Shown piece after piece: positions 23,463-35,121 of a stretch of 36,533 nt of DNA. The translations under genes were made by a program, and so were the position numbers. Under the pieces are notes generated by a model, which had not been told where the DNA came from, searched no databases, and saw only the letters and a list, made by a program, of their open reading frames with translations. The DNA comes from a virus: the IMG/VR virus record IMGVR_UViG_3300027852_000111, positions 1 through 36,533 of that record, one strand, 5' to 3'. Positions within the stretch are counted from its first letter, which is position 1; every line of letters begins with the position of its first letter.

Positions 23463-24428
23463 TTAGCCGCTTGGCATACCACCATTATTATTTTGACCAC
23501 CAGCGTTGTTGTTTTGAGGCCCATTAAGAATTTCAGTATGCGGTGCCACATTACCATGGGATGCAGTCGAATTGCCCGGTTGCCCCGCAGGTATTCCAGC
23601 ACCCATTTGCTGCTGTTGTCCACCCTGTACATTGGGATCGTACCCTTGCTGATTGGTGGCGGCAGGGTTCCCAGAAGGGTTTCCCATTGGTTGCTGTTGC
23701 TGCATAGGCTGTTGCTGCATAGGCTGTTGTTGCTGTTGCTGTTGCTGCATAGGCTGTTGCTGCATAGGCTGTTGTTGCTGTTGCTGTTGCTGCATAGGCT
23801 GTTGTTGCTGTTGCTGCATTGGCTGTTGTTGCTGCATTGGCTGTTGCCCATCACGATTAGCGAAAGCACTTGATGCTTTGATGCCGCTGACAATTGGGTC
23901 ACCAACCTGTGTCAGTTTTACTGCGTTTGGATACAGGATAATCCCGGCGTTATGGTCAGTGCGACCGTTGACCTGTGCTGCAAACATAACGTCCACATAA
24001 TCGCCACGTTTGATTTCATTACGTGGAATATCATTGTGGTATTGATCACAAGCGCCAAATTCAAATTGCGATTTAAACTTAAAGATATAGCAACCGCGCG
24101 TGTATTCGCTTGGTTCTTTAGGTTTACCTGTTGCTTTGTCAAAACCGGGTATGTCGCCATCTTCAATCTTCCATGAAAAATCGCGTGCACTCAGGCCCGT
24201 ATTGATTTGCGCCATGATCATTTGGTTCTGACCATAACCAGCAGCAGCAAATTGCCACAACTGATCGACAATTGGTTGCGATTGTTGTTTTGGTACTGCT
24301 ATAGCAAAATAATATTCCCGTTCTTCCGGTGGAATATCGTTGCCATCATAATCTTTGGTGCCTTTGGTGTTCATGTCACCGCTAAAATAGCGACCATGCC
24401 CTGTAAATAAACCTTTGAGGTTATCCAT
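23463..24428 (-). CDS. Single-stranded DNA-binding protein (DUF2815-type) with Q/P/M tail
   Basis: A 321-aa protein. Residues 1-185 match the phage SSB-like family: GHGRYFSGD near the start, EYYFAIAVPK, ARDFSWKIEDGDIPG, GCYIFKFKSQFEFG, IKRGDYVDVMFAAQVN and AGIILYPNAVKLTQVGDPIVSG, an OB-fold protein with conserved aromatics. Residues 195-248 are almost only Gln, Pro and Met, followed by a Gly/Asn-rich flexible end ending GGMPSG. Disordered Q-rich C-termini are known in SSBs for partner recruitment. The start overlaps the nuclease stop (TAATGG). It belongs to the replication block with the polymerase. Confidence 0.8.
   Translation of the reverse strand: MDNLKGLFTGHGRYFSGDMNTKGTKDYDGNDIPPEEREYYFAIAVPKQQSQPIVDQLWQFAAAGYGQNQMIMAQINTGLSARDFSWKIEDGDIPGFDKATGKPKEPSEYTRGCYIFKFKSQFEFGACDQYHNDIPRNEIKRGDYVDVMFAAQVNGRTDHNAGIILYPNAVKLTQVGDPIVSGIKASSAFANRDGQQPMQQQQPMQQQQQQPMQQQQQQQQPMQQQPMQQQQQQQQPMQQQPMQQQQPMGNPSGNPAATNQQGYDPNVQGGQQQQMGAGIPAGQPGNSTASHGNVAPHTEILNGPQNNNAGGQNNNGGMPSG
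23685..23846 (-). repeat. CAG/CAA low-complexity repeat in the SSB gene
   Basis: About 160 bp of mixed CAG/CAA codons punctuated by CCT-ATG (Pro-Met) every 3-8 Gln. The nearly identical units (ATGCAGCAACAGCCT-like) make the tract slippage-prone, so its length may vary between isolates. Confidence 0.9.
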
Positions 24429-26581: not shown

Positions 26582-28222
26582 ATGTTTATACTCAGGCAAG
26601 ATCAAGCTGATTTAAAAACTGACCTGTATGCGTCGTGGGATGGTGGTAGTAAGTCGACAATATGTGTTGCACCAACTGGTGCGGGTAAGACGGTTATTAT
26701 GTCATCAATCGCTGTGGACATCAATGAAATTTGTTGTGCAATGGCACATCGTCAAGAACTTGGTCAGCAAATAAGCATGGCGATGGCCACAATGGGTTTA
26801 TATCATAATATTATTGCACCCATGAAAACCATCAACACTATAATTGCGATGCATATTCGTGATTTCGGCAAGTCGTTCTATGATCCACGCGCAAAGCTGA
26901 CGGTTGCTGGTGTCAACACGCTTAACGCACGGAAGGATGAACTGGTACAATGGGCCAACACCGTTCGTTATTGGATGGGCGATGAATGTCACCATTTCCT
27001 AGAAGAAAACCAATGGGGTCGTGCAGTTGCTATGTTTTCGAACGCACGTGGTGTAGGGTTTACCGCAACACCAATACGTTGTGACAGGAAATCATTAGAG
27101 TTGGGCAACGGTGGCGTCTTTACTGATTTGGTCGAAGGTTGGGATATGCGTATGTTAATCAACGCCAATCACTTAGCTGACTATCGAATATTTGGGCCAC
27201 CACAATCAATCAACCGTGATGACATAAAAATATCGGCAGCAACAAAAGAATTTACCCATAAATCTACTGTCGATATTGTCAAAAAATCATCTATAACAGG
27301 GGACATTGTTGATCATTACTTAAGGTTGGCAGAAGGTAAACGGGGCATCACATTCACCGTTGACGTTGAAAGTGCAATACGCACAGCAGAAGCGTACAAT
27401 GAAGCAGGGGTGCCAGCGGCAGCAGTGTCAGCAAAAACACCTGATACTGTACGCAATGAAACTATTCGTAAATTCCAGAATGGGTCGTTGTTGCAATTGG
27501 TAAACGTTGATTTATTTGGGGAAGGCTTTGATGTCCCTGCTGTTGAAGTTGTCAGCATGGCACGACCTACCCAATCGTTTGGTTTATATGCACAGCAGTT
27601 TGGTCGCGCATTGCGCACAGCAGATGGTAAAACACACGGTATCATTATTGATCACGTTGGTAATGTGAAACAACACAACCTGCCGGATCGCCCCATGAAC
27701 TGGACACTGACACCACAATATACGTCGCGTGGCGCATCAACACGTGATCCTGATATTATGCCAATTACAACATGCACCAAATGCTTTGAAGCGTTTGAAG
27801 CGGTTACTGCAAAATGCCCGTATTGCGGTTATTGTCAAGAACCCGAAAGCAGATCAGAACCTAAGTTTATCGATGGTGATTTAATTGAATTTTCACCTGA
27901 GTTGTTAGCGCTCTTACGTGCCGACATTGAAAAGATTGATCGTGATTTTGATTACGATACGATGCTGCCAAATTCAATTAAAGGTACACCGGGGCAAAAA
28001 AGTGTTGTTCGCGCCCATGGTAATAATCAATTGGCACAGGCTAGTTTGCGTGAAAGCATTGCGATGTGGGCAGGTTTTAAACGCCATCAAGGTCAATCCG
28101 ATAGTGAAATTTATAGACGGTTCTGGCATACGTTCGGGATCGATATAATGAGCGCACAGGGCTTAAAAGCCAAAGAAGCAACAGCCCTGACAACCAAGGT
28201 GACAGAAGGATATCAGGCATGA
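26582..28222 (+). CDS. SF2 DEAD/DEAH-type helicase
   Basis: A 546-aa helicase. Walker A APTGAGKT (30-37), DEAH-like box GDECHH (Asp134), motif III TATP (161-164) and motif VI QFGRALRT (about 339-346) are all visible. A zinc-binding element, CTKCFEAFEAVTAKCPYCGYC, follows near residue 400. The architecture resembles phage UvsW/RecG-like helicases for remodelling replication forks and recombination intermediates, and common replication-module SF2 helicases. It is the first gene of the rightward operon; its end overlaps the next small gene by ATGA. Confidence 0.9.
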   Translation: MFILRQDQADLKTDLYASWDGGSKSTICVAPTGAGKTVIMSSIAVDINEICCAMAHRQELGQQISMAMATMGLYHNIIAPMKTINTIIAMHIRDFGKSFYDPRAKLTVAGVNTLNARKDELVQWANTVRYWMGDECHHFLEENQWGRAVAMFSNARGVGFTATPIRCDRKSLELGNGGVFTDLVEGWDMRMLINANHLADYRIFGPPQSINRDDIKISAATKEFTHKSTVDIVKKSSITGDIVDHYLRLAEGKRGITFTVDVESAIRTAEAYNEAGVPAAAVSAKTPDTVRNETIRKFQNGSLLQLVNVDLFGEGFDVPAVEVVSMARPTQSFGLYAQQFGRALRTADGKTHGIIIDHVGNVKQHNLPDRPMNWTLTPQYTSRGASTRDPDIMPITTCTKCFEAFEAVTAKCPYCGYCQEPESRSEPKFIDGDLIEFSPELLALLRADIEKIDRDFDYDTMLPNSIKGTPGQKSVVRAHGNNQLAQASLRESIAMWAGFKRHQGQSDSEIYRRFWHTFGIDIMSAQGLKAKEATALTTKVTEGYQA

Positions 28223-28637: not shown

Positions 28638-28797
28638 ATCAGGAAAATATACACGCTGCAAGAACTGTAAAGAGCTTGTTTTAGATGCTGATAACTGTGC
28701 GAATTGTGCAGCTAACAATGAGAATAGGCGACCAGTAAGAAACGGCAAACGCGGTATACCGACGTTGGATATTCAAGAAGGAAATGATGACCGATGA
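28627..28797 (+). CDS. Small zinc-ribbon protein
   Basis: A 56-aa basic protein with a CKNC...CANC pair (about residues 12-15 and 25-28) forming a likely zinc ribbon, flanked by KRKSGKYTR and NRRPVRNGKRG. It overlaps both neighbours (11 bases with the upstream gene, ATGA with the downstream). Such proteins are common in phage replication operons; the partner is unknown. Confidence 0.65.
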   Translation: MKRKSGKYTRCKNCKELVLDADNCANCAANNENRRPVRNGKRGIPTLDIQEGNDDR

Positions 28798-29297
28798 ATA
28801 ACGACCTGCACAATTGGATGGCACGTAATAGTATCTACGGTAATGCCGCAACAGAACTTCTTTCAATACTTGATCCTATGTTTGGTGTCACTTTGTTACC
28901 ATCGGGATCAAATTCCGAAGCGGCAGTTCAGGCCGAATGTCGCGCAATTGCGCCACGCTATGGTGGGTCACTTTGGCGCAACAACAACGGTGCAGCACAG
29001 GTCATTGAAGATGATGGGCAAACACGCTTCATTCGATTTGGTCTTGGCAATGATAGTACAAAATTAAACAAGGTGTGGAAATCAAGTGATGCAATCGGTA
29101 TAACCAAAGTGTATTCAGAGTACGTGGGGCAACCTTTCGGTGTATTTACAGCAGTAGAATTTAAAGAACCGGGGTGGAAAAACCCCCGTACCAAACGCGA
29201 ACTTGCACAAGCTGCATTTCTCACAACAGTAAGGTCAAAAGGTGGCATTGGCATCTTTGCTCAATCCACAGCAGATTATGAAGGAATATTCAAATGA
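28794..29297 (+). CDS. VRR-NUC/Holliday-resolvase-like nuclease
   Basis: A 167-aa protein with a PD-(D/E)XK pattern: Glu near residue 43-48 (SEAAVQAECRAI), SSDAIG with Asp99, AVEFKEPG with Glu122-x-Lys124, and Gln139 in ELAQAAFLTTV. Phage VRR-NUC-type enzymes of this length resolve branched DNA. The order E-D-ExK-Q is the hallmark of the fold. It is encoded right before a TetR-like HTH protein and the primase-helicase. Confidence 0.78.
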   Translation: MNNDLHNWMARNSIYGNAATELLSILDPMFGVTLLPSGSNSEAAVQAECRAIAPRYGGSLWRNNNGAAQVIEDDGQTRFIRFGLGNDSTKLNKVWKSSDAIGITKVYSEYVGQPFGVFTAVEFKEPGWKNPRTKRELAQAAFLTTVRSKGGIGIFAQSTADYEGIFK

Positions 29298-29551
29298 GAA
29301 TGCAAGCAGAAACGCGACGTGCTATGATTGTTTCGGCAATTGTACGCATGGCTGTAGATAAAGGATTGGCAGGGGTAACCCATGGTGGTGTTGTCAAGTA
29401 TTGTGTCATTCGGACATCAAAATCATCACTGCGTAAATACTTCCCAACACAAAAAGATTTGTGGGAAGCAGCACATGATTATGACCCTGTAGGATTTAAA
29501 GAACAAGCGATTGAACTTGGTCTTATTTCAGGGGTGGGTGATGCAAAATAA
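29294..29551 (+). CDS. Stand-alone TetR-type HTH protein
   Basis: An 85-aa protein. The region MIVSAIVRMAVDKGLAGVTHGGVVKYCVIRTSKSSLRKYFPTQKDLWEAA matches the TetR N-terminal DNA-binding pattern (I..Aa...a..G...vT...Va.......s...ly.yFp.k..Lw). The ligand-binding domain is absent: only about 25 aa follow. A full TetR has about 200 aa, so this is a minimal or specialised form. It lies within the operon (ATGA overlap upstream), 11 bases overlapping the next gene. It could regulate the nearby divergent promoters. Confidence 0.72.
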   Translation: MRMQAETRRAMIVSAIVRMAVDKGLAGVTHGGVVKYCVIRTSKSSLRKYFPTQKDLWEAAHDYDPVGFKEQAIELGLISGVGDAK

Positions 29552-31799
29552 TATGCCCAATCAGTTCATGAATTGGACTGATTTTAATCCACTTACTGGT
29601 GAAAAAGGTAAATTTCCCTGCCTTACGACAGGTAAGATTGTTGACCCCCATGATCCAAACAACTGGACGACATATGATAACGCCGCACAATGTGGTAATG
29701 TCGCATTTGTAATTACTGAAAACGACCCTTATTTTTTTCTGGACTTGGATAAGTGTCGCGATGATCAAGGCAACTGGTCTGCTGCTGCACAATCGATATA
29801 TCTGAGTTTTGCCGGGGCGATGGGTGAGATATCCACATCTGGAAAAGGTTTGCACATCCTTGGTAAATGTAACAAACACATGTTGCAAGATCGCCGTAAC
29901 AAATGGGATGGTTGGTTAGAGTTTTATACGACTGGTCGGTTCATTGCTTTCGGTAACACAGGATGGCAACCCATCAATGATGTGAACAACCCAGATGTAG
30001 ATTGGACACAGCAGCTTCTTCATTTTGTACCGCAACGCCAAGAACTTGGTGAAATAACAGAAGGCGTTGACCCTGCATACACCGGGCCGTCAGATGATGA
30101 TGAATTGGTTGCTAAAATGCTGGCATCAGTTGGTGGTGCCGGGCAAGCGTTTGGTGGCAAAGCAACTGTGGCACAATTATGGAATGCAGACCCAATACTA
30201 TGTCAAATTTACCCTGATTATCAGGATCGTCCTGATCACTTTGATCATTCATCTGCCGACGCTGCATTGTTCGCACACTTGGCGTTTTGGACAGGCAAAG
30301 ACATGCCGCGCATGGACAGGTTGTTTAGAAAATCTGCATTGATGCGTGACAAATATGACAAGCGCGAAGACTACCGTACTAAAACAGTATATGACGCGGC
30401 TCGCATGTGTAATCGCGTGTATGATTTTGAGAAGAAGGACAAGAAACCAAAGGCACTGCCAGCGCCGGAAGTATACCTTACCGTTAATGAACAAATAGCC
30501 CATTTTGAAGGGTGCGTTTACATTCGTGACTTACATCGTGTGATGGTACCTGACGGTACACTGCTTAAGCCTGAACAGTTCAAATCAACATACGGCGGTC
30601 ACATCTTTCAGATGAACCCTGACGGGACACAACCTGAAAAAAATGCATTCATTGCGTTCACTGAAAATAGGACACATCGGTTCCCTAAAGTGAATACCGC
30701 CATCTTCAATCCCAACCTGCCATCAGGGTTTGTCAATGATAATGAAGTTAACATATATGTTCCGGCTGTGATTGACAGTCGACCGGGAGACATCACACGT
30801 TTCACAGCGTTCTTAACTAAACTAATGCCTGAGCAATCAGATAGGGAAATCATACTTGCATGGATGGCGGCGTGTGTGCAGAACCCCGGTAGTAAATTTC
30901 AATGGGCACCTGTTCTTCAAGGTACCGAAGGTAACGGTAAAACGTTCTTGATGAACTGTGTGGCACAAGCCATCGGTGAACGACATACGCACCGCCCCAA
31001 CGCCAAAGAACTAGGTGAAAAATACAATAGCTATGTTGAAACATCGTTGTTTATCATTGTTGAGGAAATCCACATGCAGGGGCGTCGTGAAATGCTAGAT
31101 GACCTAAAGGATAAGATCACCAACGAATGGCTTGAAATACGCGGCATGGCACAGGATAAACGCATGGCTCGTAATTTCAGCAAATGGGGTTTCTGTACCA
31201 ACCATATGGATGCGGTATTGAAATCACAGAATGATAGACGCTACGCGATATTTTTTCTGGCACAACAATGCTACGCCGACATTGTACGCGACGGGATGAA
31301 CGGTGATTATTTCCCTGATCTTTATAATTGGGCAAGAAAAGAAGGTTATGCCGCTGTTACGCATTTTCTAATGAATTACGCGATACCTGAACACTTGAAC
31401 CCCGCCACCCTTTGCCACCGTGCACCAAACACAACCAGCACAGCCAAGGCCATCACCAAATCAATCGGTATGATTGAGGGTGAAATCATTGAAGCGGCTA
31501 ACGATGGTACGATAGGTTTCAAAGGTGGTTTTGTGAGTTCATTGATGCTCGACAAACTGATGCGCGATAAAGGCTTTCGTGTTGGTCGGAACAAACGTGT
31601 GGATATCATGATTGAACTTGGCTACTCAAAATGCACTGCATGGGTCGATGGTCGTTTTCCAAAGGCCATAGTCGAAGAAGGCTCTAAACGGCCTGTAATC
31701 TACGTTAAAAACGATCTGACGTTAGAAAACGACGTAGTCAAACAGTATTATGAGGCACAAGGATATATGTCTCAGGGTTTTGGTATGCCATCGGGGTAA
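29541..31799 (+). CDS. Primase-helicase (PrimPol + D5-like/DUF5906)
   Basis: A 752-aa bifunctional protein. The N-terminal AEP/PrimPol domain has FFLDLDKC (D68xD70 type, about residues 65-72) and STSGKGLHI (about 98-106) with the catalytic His. A C-terminal SF3/D5-type helicase follows, with Walker A GTEGNGKT (about 461-468) and Walker B FIIVEEIH (about 504-511). Start ATG 29541 with GGGGTGGG upstream; an ATG at 29511 lies in the HTH gene. The C-terminus ends GMPSG, like the SSB. With the polymerase and SSB it completes a self-sufficient replisome. Confidence 0.88.
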   Translation: MQNNMPNQFMNWTDFNPLTGEKGKFPCLTTGKIVDPHDPNNWTTYDNAAQCGNVAFVITENDPYFFLDLDKCRDDQGNWSAAAQSIYLSFAGAMGEISTSGKGLHILGKCNKHMLQDRRNKWDGWLEFYTTGRFIAFGNTGWQPINDVNNPDVDWTQQLLHFVPQRQELGEITEGVDPAYTGPSDDDELVAKMLASVGGAGQAFGGKATVAQLWNADPILCQIYPDYQDRPDHFDHSSADAALFAHLAFWTGKDMPRMDRLFRKSALMRDKYDKREDYRTKTVYDAARMCNRVYDFEKKDKKPKALPAPEVYLTVNEQIAHFEGCVYIRDLHRVMVPDGTLLKPEQFKSTYGGHIFQMNPDGTQPEKNAFIAFTENRTHRFPKVNTAIFNPNLPSGFVNDNEVNIYVPAVIDSRPGDITRFTAFLTKLMPEQSDREIILAWMAACVQNPGSKFQWAPVLQGTEGNGKTFLMNCVAQAIGERHTHRPNAKELGEKYNSYVETSLFIIVEEIHMQGRREMLDDLKDKITNEWLEIRGMAQDKRMARNFSKWGFCTNHMDAVLKSQNDRRYAIFFLAQQCYADIVRDGMNGDYFPDLYNWARKEGYAAVTHFLMNYAIPEHLNPATLCHRAPNTTSTAKAITKSIGMIEGEIIEAANDGTIGFKGGFVSSLMLDKLMRDKGFRVGRNKRVDIMIELGYSKCTAWVDGRFPKAIVEEGSKRPVIYVKNDLTLENDVVKQYYEAQGYMSQGFGMPSG

Positions 31800-31809
31800 G
31801 CCATTAGCA

Positions 31810-31831
31810 ACCCAAGCAATCACGCTTGGGT
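31810..31831 (+). terminator. Intrinsic terminator-like hairpin after the primase-helicase
   Basis: ACCCAAGC (31810-31817) and GCTTGGGT (31824-31831) make a perfect 8-bp stem with a 6-nt loop, 10 bases after the stop, followed by ATATTG rather than a clean T run. It may attenuate expression of the next small gene. Confidence 0.55.
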
Positions 31832-31849
31832 ATATTGAAGGGAAATAAC

Positions 31850-32038
31850 ATGTCAAAAGAAACTACAATGCCGGGTTTTAACCCATCGGGTTCTGAGGTT
31901 GTCGCAGAGACAAAGCGGATAACCGAAGAACTTATGGAATACATTCGCAATAATGTACCAGACAACCGCTGCCGCTCTATTGCTCTTATAAATATTGAAC
32001 AAGGTGCAATGTGGGCCGTTAAAGCGAACTTTACTTAA
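31850..32038 (+). CDS. Acb2/Tad1-like small protein (candidate anti-CBASS/anti-Thoeris sponge)
   Basis: A 62-aa protein. After a short N-terminal segment, ETKRITEELMEYIRNNVPDNR and CRSIALINIEQGAMWAVKANFT form two helices with a turn at VPDNR. This matches the helical hairpin I know from Acb2/Tad1-like proteins (..l...i...lPd.RekslALt.lEeA.mWA.aai). Those form hexamers that bind cyclic di-/trinucleotides or gcADPR and block CBASS or Thoeris. The start is ATG 31850 behind AAGGG at good spacing; the in-frame ATG 31826 lies in the hairpin stem. It is the last gene of the rightward operon. Confidence 0.62.
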   Translation: MSKETTMPGFNPSGSEVVAETKRITEELMEYIRNNVPDNRCRSIALINIEQGAMWAVKANFT

Positions 32039-32046
32039 GACAAAGA

Positions 32047-32106
32047 AAGACCCGGCTGGTATTTTGGTAATTCCGGGAAGAAATATCCTAAATTGCGCCG
32101 GGTCTT
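32047..32106. terminator. Bidirectional terminator-like stem between convergent operons
   Basis: AAGACCCGGC (32047-32056) and GCCGGGTCTT (32097-32106) are a perfect 10-bp inverted repeat around a 40-nt loop that itself has weaker self-complementarity (TTCC-G-GGAA). The rightward side ends TCTTCT; on the leftward strand AAGACCCGGC is followed by GCAATT. It lies in the 123-bp gap between convergent genes and probably stops both operons, although the loop is unusually long. Confidence 0.55.
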
Positions 32107-34679: not shown

Positions 34680-34855
34680 TATTTGCTACCCCCTCTTGGT
34701 TCCCATTTGCTACCCCATGTGCGATACACAAGGCTCAATCCTTCTTGACGGTACTGGAAGCGTTCAAGCCACACCCAACAGTCATTGCTGTCTACTTTAC
34801 ACGGTAATATTGCAAAACCTGTGTGCCAGTCGCTATCGTTACCACCCCAACGCAT
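34679..34855 (-). CDS. 58-aa Trp-rich small protein
   Basis: Read by hand: MRWGGNDSDWHTGFAILPCK, VDSNDCWVWLERFQYRQEG and LSLVYRTWGSKWEPRGGSK. Six Trp in 58 residues, two Cys and a basic end make it look like a compact beta protein. It starts in a TGATG overlap with the GapR-like gene and ends in a TAATG overlap with the next gene. Function unknown. Confidence 0.6.
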   Translation of the reverse strand: MRWGGNDSDWHTGFAILPCKVDSNDCWVWLERFQYRQEGLSLVYRTWGSKWEPRGGSK

Positions 34856-35121
34856 CACATACCCAACGCTTCGCGATATAATTCAAGAATGGCTTCTTCT
34901 TCCGATACCTCACCGGGGTCTTTCTTGCGCATGGCAATTATGTTGCGCATAATTTTAGTGTCATATCCGCGTGATTTTGCCTCAGCCATTACTTCTTTTT
35001 GCTGGTCAGCAATGTCCTTTTTTTCCGCTTCTAATCGCTCAAAACGTTCAATGAATGATCTTAGTTCATCAGCAGCTACGCGATATGATCCGGGTGATGA
35101 ATTTCCTGATGGTAATGGCAT
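34855..35121 (-). CDS. gapR: GapR-like (DUF2312) nucleoid-associated protein
   Basis: An 88-aa protein. Residues 14-88 match DUF2312: VAADELRSFIERFERLEAEK, then KEVMAEAKSRGYDTKIMRNIIAMRKKDP and EEEAILELYREALGM. GapR of Caulobacter is a tetrameric DNA clamp that binds overtwisted DNA ahead of forks and polymerases. The extra N-terminus MPLPSGNSSPG belongs to the LPSG leader type. A phage copy could help replicate or silence DNA. It indicates an alphaproteobacterial host. Confidence 0.85.
   Translation of the reverse strand: MPLPSGNSSPGSYRVAADELRSFIERFERLEAEKKDIADQQKEVMAEAKSRGYDTKIMRNIIAMRKKDPGEVSEEEAILELYREALGM

Follow-up and report, generated by a model that had tools for sequence, protein, structure and literature searches.

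A gene for a protein of only 62 amino acids, lying in a viral window of 36,533 nucleotides (the whole stretch of DNA that was analysed), is quite likely to encode a minimal Acb2-like cyclic-oligonucleotide sponge directed against CBASS. The family to which the protein belongs, its single-chain fold, its conservation and the mobility of its gene between phages are directly established. The range of Acb2-type sponges is extended in this way: in alphaproteobacterial phages, namely those of roseobacters, sphingomonads and their relatives, some of them marine, they form a clade that is compact, mobile and highly conserved. To our knowledge, counter-CBASS genes are little known in such phages, the marine ones included. 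Moreover, at 62 residues the gene raises the question of what the smallest working sponge might be.

The open reading frame is a real, conserved gene. It extends from an ATG at 31850 to a stop codon at 32036–32038, with the translation MSKETTMPGFNPSGSEVVAETKRITEELMEYIRNNVPDNRCRSIALINIEQGAMWAVKANFT, and 55 relatives align with the protein, such that its conservation is evident at the level of the family. Pairwise comparisons with seven relatives give pN/pS values of 0.17–0.24. Taken with the conservation across the 55 relatives and the match to a curated family, these values place the frame beyond chance. An earlier note on this DNA had described the same frame, with its own ribosome site and a position at the end of a replication operon, and its coordinates and sequence, the site and the position are all confirmed. 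A Shine–Dalgarno sequence precedes the gene (Table 1), and the ATG lies 50 bp past the stop codon of the primase gene, at the close of a block of helicase, endonuclease and primase genes. The true start of the primase may be downstream of the TTG that is listed for it.

Table 1. Locations of the 62-residue protein gene, its surroundings in the window and related elements at other loci.
Feature	Location	Strand	Basis or remark
Gene for the 62-aa Acb2/Tad1-hairpin (PF24729) protein, candidate cyclic-nucleotide sponge	31850..32038	+	Pfam, alignment, AF2, pN/pS
Shine–Dalgarno AAGGGA of the 62-aa ORF	31838..31843	+	sequence
8-bp leader hairpin ACCCAAGC-AATCAC-GCTTGGGT	31810..31831	+	shuffle test
DNA primase, upstream gene (NrS-1-polymerase-like HBD, DUF5906)	29511..31799	+	762-codon ORF
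Endonuclease-like gene, upstream in the same operon	28794-29297		
Helicase, upstream in the same operon	26582-28222		
Inverted repeat AAGACCCGGC (32047-32056) / GCCGGGTCTT (32097-32106)	32047..32106	.	sequence; fold z = -3.05
GapR-like DNA-binding protein gene	34855-35121	-	PF10073, 115 bits
SUFG_00048, RyR + hairpin fusion, 188 aa	L073:3632-4198		PF02026 40.5 bits, then hairpin 33.4 bits
R1 leaders before Acb2-like genes	L011:4941-4983, L012:4944-4986, L015:4941-4983, L017:911-953, L018:4942-4984		
R1 leaders before Acb2-like genes, continued	L022:4940-4982, L024:2101-2142, L031:4941-4982, L080:5941-5983, L117:3670-3712(-)		
R2 loci, first set	L137, L149, L152, L154, L165, L170, L173, L174, L175, L187, L188, L192, L197, L200		
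R2 loci, second set	L081:5956-5984, L079:2843-2871, L043:4945-4973, L013:4070-4098		

The sole Pfam-A match of the protein is to PF24729 (Acb2_Tad1_hairpin); its score of 43.1 bits exceeds the cut-off of 27 by some 16 bits. The match spans residues 9–61 of the protein and positions 1–57 of the 58 in the profile, and the same profile is matched by all 55 of the aligned relatives from viral contigs. Judged by its sequence, the protein is a short new member of the known Acb2/Tad1 sponge family. Within the alignment of relatives, R40, E50, Q51, A53, M54, W55 and A56 are invariant, and P12, V18, A45, T47, N48, A52 and K58 are nearly so. AlphaFold2, run on an alignment of 55 rows, gives a two-helix hairpin (helices 16–35 and 40–59) with a mean pLDDT of 94.5, in which the first helix is preceded by a segment of about 15 residues that is extended, with no clear helix and no strands.

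Comparison of folds and profiles points in the same direction. The top named Foldseek matches in BFVD are mostly Acb2/Tad1-hairpin proteins (probability 0.8–1.0, TM up to 0.82). Against the PDB, neither model finds anything significant with Foldseek, Tad1 chains ranking first at an E of about 3, but a bare helical hairpin has little fold information and this null result therefore carries little weight either way. A profile search of the PDB places ‘Acb2 homolog 43’ (9ptq, E 0.13) and T4 Vs.4 (7uq2, E 0.79) second and third, both below significance, and the family HMM, run against a panel of 23 proteins, picks out T4 Vs.4, which is Acb2, at an E of 4.6e-6. A single-sequence search of solved structures returned chance helical matches only, a search of NCBIfam gave no match, and the Pseudomonas Acb2, sought in PaP2, had no clear match among the ORFs tested. 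The family and the hairpin pattern proposed in the earlier note are thus borne out, by PF24729, by the folds in BFVD, by the reach of the HMM to T4 Vs.4 and by the predicted structure; the profile and fold comparison that it suggested is positive in the first three respects and not significant against the PDB, by profile or by Foldseek. Its label of Acb2/Tad1 needs to be narrowed, in that the Acb2-like hairpin stands and the Tad1 part does not, there being no N-terminal β domain.

Like the 62-residue protein, Acb2 (T4 Vs.4; Pseudomonas phage PaMx33/PaP2) is a small, stand-alone phage protein with the PF24729 hairpin, and the two share a C-terminal MWA-(C/V)-(R/K)-A-x-F motif, whose Phe stacks on bases in T4 Acb2, together with an N-terminal aromatic-x-Pro motif. 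Acb2 is, however, 89–94 residues in length, each arm of the present protein is roughly 11–12 residues shorter, and the pairwise similarity of the two is below the reach of BLAST or phmmer. Acb2 consists of three helices, two of them long and one short (PMC12043709). In the T4 protein Phe82 stacks on bound cyclic dinucleotides, with F82C abolishing activity, and Tyr8 is needed too, since Y8A abolishes binding (PMC12657218). F61 of the 62-residue protein aligns with this Phe82 in HMM alignments, and its invariant GFNP (F10) aligns, although only weakly, with the GYKP of T4 (Tyr8). F10 and F61 are 51 residues apart, as against 74 between Tyr8 and Phe82 of T4 Acb2; in other words, the protein is a much shortened hairpin.

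The Acb2 assembly is a hexamer of head-to-head pairs, and Acb2 is a trigger of Panoptes (OptSE). By analogy we infer the oligomer, the ligand and the counter-defence role of the 62-residue protein, which would most likely self-assemble in the same fashion, trapping cyclic di- and/or trinucleotides between its protomers, where the aromatic side chains of F10 and F61 would stack on the bases of the ligand. With the signals so trapped, CBASS effectors would be kept inactive during infection, as possibly would NucC of type III CRISPR. This picture needs some tempering. Since the hairpin arms are shorter than those of T4 Acb2, the known hexamer may not form, and some members of PF24729, not all of which have been characterised, may bind other ligands. 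In Microbacterium phage Statler a putative Acb2 is likewise a predicted sponge by profile match only (PMC13348362), and this protein and other hypothetical PF24729 phage proteins of its type share that profile-based status with the 62-residue protein, although they are from actinobacterial phages and are distant from it in sequence.

A sponge of the same fold might instead take up ADP-ribose-type signals, such as the gcADPR of Thoeris, rather than the cyclic oligonucleotides of CBASS. This is unlikely, even though Tad1 (from a Clostridium botulinum prophage, and others) has the C-terminal helical hairpin in common with the present protein, PF24729 covering both, and even though Tad1 chains are the top, if not significant, fold matches in the PDB. 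The gcADPR pocket of Tad1 is built from loops of its N-terminal β-sheet domain (PMC12043709), and it is exactly this defining, four-stranded domain which is absent here. The known gcADPR pocket therefore cannot form and the protein is Acb2-like, not Tad1; a gcADPR pocket is unlikely.

The same alternative draws some further weight from the nearest relative in an isolated phage, SUFG_00048 of Sulfitobacter phage phiCB2047-B (39% identity, E 5e-8), in which the hairpin is fused to RyR, a family acting on cyclic ADP-ribose signals. This protein retains the FNPSG of the 62-residue protein, has Ala in place of Phe61 and possesses an N-terminal RyR domain in addition. Phage RyR-domain proteins (RyDEP) were shown in 2026 to act on the cyclic ADP-ribose signals of Thoeris, which they cleave or sequester by means of H75, W78, H100 and D117 (PMC13232231); as read from its sequence, SUFG_00048 has this pattern of ligand and catalytic residues, with H, W, H and D identically spaced (+3, +25, +42). 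That paper does not contain the words Tad1, hairpin or Sulfitobacter, nor did we find the fusion described in it (PMC13232231). PHROG 5154 spans both RyR and hairpin, stand-alone relatives of each half exist, and among the proteins examined for further fusions both domains reach their family cut-offs only in phiCB2047-B. A fusion of this sort appears more sensible if its halves trap different signals, which argues against gcADPR as the ligand of the hairpin. The fusion supports, without proving, a counter-defence role of the hairpin in this lineage, and SUFG_00048 may be a two-signal counter-defence protein, this natural fusion suggesting that one protein is set against two immune signals.

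The distribution of the relatives bears further on function. They are encoded at 64 viral-contig loci and on seven bacterial genome contigs (Roseivivax, Croceicoccus, two of Novosphingobium, Hoeflea, a pseudomonadote and a myxococcal bin), the loci in the four named genera being of prophage type. The closer relatives are 55–82% identical and are found in phages with almost no neighbouring genes in common. The only genes of the window that recur near relatives are the endolysin-like gene (two loci) and the GapR-like match (three loci). The immediate neighbours of the relatives, named from sequence reading and not from profiles, include genes for terminase/portal, endolysin, ribonucleotide reductase and polymerase. 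Well conserved, yet in unrelated contexts, the sponge gene has the pattern of a mobile, exchangeable accessory gene, for example one of counter-defence.

This pattern also weighs on the proposal that the hairpin has an unrelated role, perhaps in replication as a small factor for regulation or assembly, as the generic nature of the fold and the place of the gene at the close of a replication operon might be taken to imply. Such a role is improbable, since the variable neighbours of the relatives include none that is shared, so that a replication role does not travel with the gene, and since the protein matches a single, specific curated family, within whose motif all of the invariant residues fall. 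A decayed, non-working family member, for which the I-N-I in place of the consensus T47-N48-Y49 and the lack in the window of the leader elements R1 and R2 of the relatives (see below) might speak, is most improbable given an intact frame with its own ribosome site, the pN/pS values above and the retention of all the invariant family residues.

With regard to a sponge acting against CBASS, the SMODS nucleotidyltransferase, which is the CBASS signal maker, is encoded by two of the six genomes or MAGs in which a relative occurs. Of 81 genomes from the Roseivivax family, seven have it as well, a background against which two in six is not a clear enrichment and the association not significant. CBASS is present in the likely host group, yet uncommon.

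A covarying RNA fold before the gene is well supported in the relatives. In the type designated R1, a first hairpin (4-bp stem, 5-nt loop) is followed by TTTCGCC, a second hairpin (5-bp stem, loop AGCGTCAA), about 20 nt and the ATG. In an alignment of 10 sequences each of the nine pairs has, in one sequence or more, both of its bases replaced with pairing kept, 97.8% of the cells are paired, and none of 500 shuffles does as well; RNAalifold recovers both helices unaided. When the linker (CGC) and the loop (GCG) are also paired, as a pseudoknot, covariation is seen at 11 of the 12 pairs, CCC:GGG and TGC:GCA variants included. A covariance model of R1 scores 43–60 bits at 12 places, 10 of which, or their duplicates, were in its training alignment; all 12 are directly upstream of sponge genes, and scores elsewhere are at most 16 bits. 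Across 289 alphaproteobacterial genomes the single strong R1 match lies before the Roseivivax sponge gene, and among Rfam matches at E up to 10 there is no family of the R1 type. When IMG/VR was scanned by motif alone, with a portion of R1, 21 stretches emerged; the six with an intact second stem all lie before a sponge-family gene, and the 15 that lack this stem do not. One of the six gave a divergent sponge ORF (at L117; PF24729, 32.2 bits) which the protein search had missed. In the scans made, R1 is seen before sponge genes only.

Of 54 sponge leaders, 24 have an H-type pseudoknot architecture, and they fall into 16 clusters at 75% upstream identity. Shuffles would lead one to expect about 1.8, and among control gene starts seven of 148 have it, although the Fisher p of 1e-10 for the latter comparison is indicative only, because the score threshold was set after first inspection. 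In one leader subtype a second hairpin precedes the pseudoknot. The mean upstream folding energy in the relatives is unremarkable (mean z -0.14), and the leader signal emerged only once position and pairing were tested. The R2 subtype, CCGC-GCCCG-GCGG-NNC-CGGGC, is an H-type pseudoknot before the Shine–Dalgarno sequence, found before some sponge genes and before many unrelated phage genes, with no strong matches seen elsewhere in 81 sphingomonad genomes; it is a candidate for a new phage RNA family. For R2, the many other genes that it precedes rule out a sponge-specific leader, and the leader is hence an expression element of phages rather than a device confined to sponges.

The RNA leader appears to be undescribed. 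Tentatively, and with rather less confidence than is attached to the sponge itself, it may be proposed that an undescribed structured leader, its pseudoknot ending 16–24 nt before the start codon, serves the expression of this clade's sponge genes and of further genes in alphaproteobacterial phages. Such a leader would control or boost the translation, or the mRNA stability, of a protein that is needed in stoichiometric excess and, at the furthest reading, would itself sense the nucleotide signal. Through the covarying leader, which stands before many of these genes, one could test how phages come to produce sufficient sponge at a sufficiently early stage.

In the window, the position of the relatives’ pseudoknot leader is occupied by a hairpin with a perfect 8-bp stem and a 6-nt loop, which ends 18 nt before the ATG and has no convincing pseudoknot partner. 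It is reached by none of 200 dinucleotide shuffles, the leader fold has a z of -2.4, and a stem as long as 8 bp is found at about 3% of control gene starts. The stem had been called attenuator-like in the earlier note; the hairpin is real, but the terminator or attenuator reading falls, as there is no T-run and no plus-strand terminator was found there. Membership of R1 or R2 was also rejected; for R1, on which relatives score 43–60 bits, no match above chance was found near the gene. The hairpin looks like a local form of the structured 5′ leader of the relatives, of which it would be a reduced version; it is either a relic of that leader or an independent stem.

The source phage is tailed, with a terminase nearest to those of the Roseobacter phages CRP-8xx (about 48% identity). 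This terminase is consistent with an alphaproteobacterial host, as is the GapR-like gene, PF10073 being a chromosome-structuring family that is mainly alphaproteobacterial. Three further sponge loci (L078, L079 and L081) have GapR-like relatives in their vicinity too. Just past the stop codon of the sponge gene, between convergent operons, the 10-bp inverted repeat may serve one strand or both as a terminator; its tail is richer in T on the minus strand. Elsewhere in the window, a 321-residue ORF on the minus strand (23463–24428) contains a long run of QQQQPM repeats; its product is presumably a single-strand-binding/DUF2815-like protein of the replication module.
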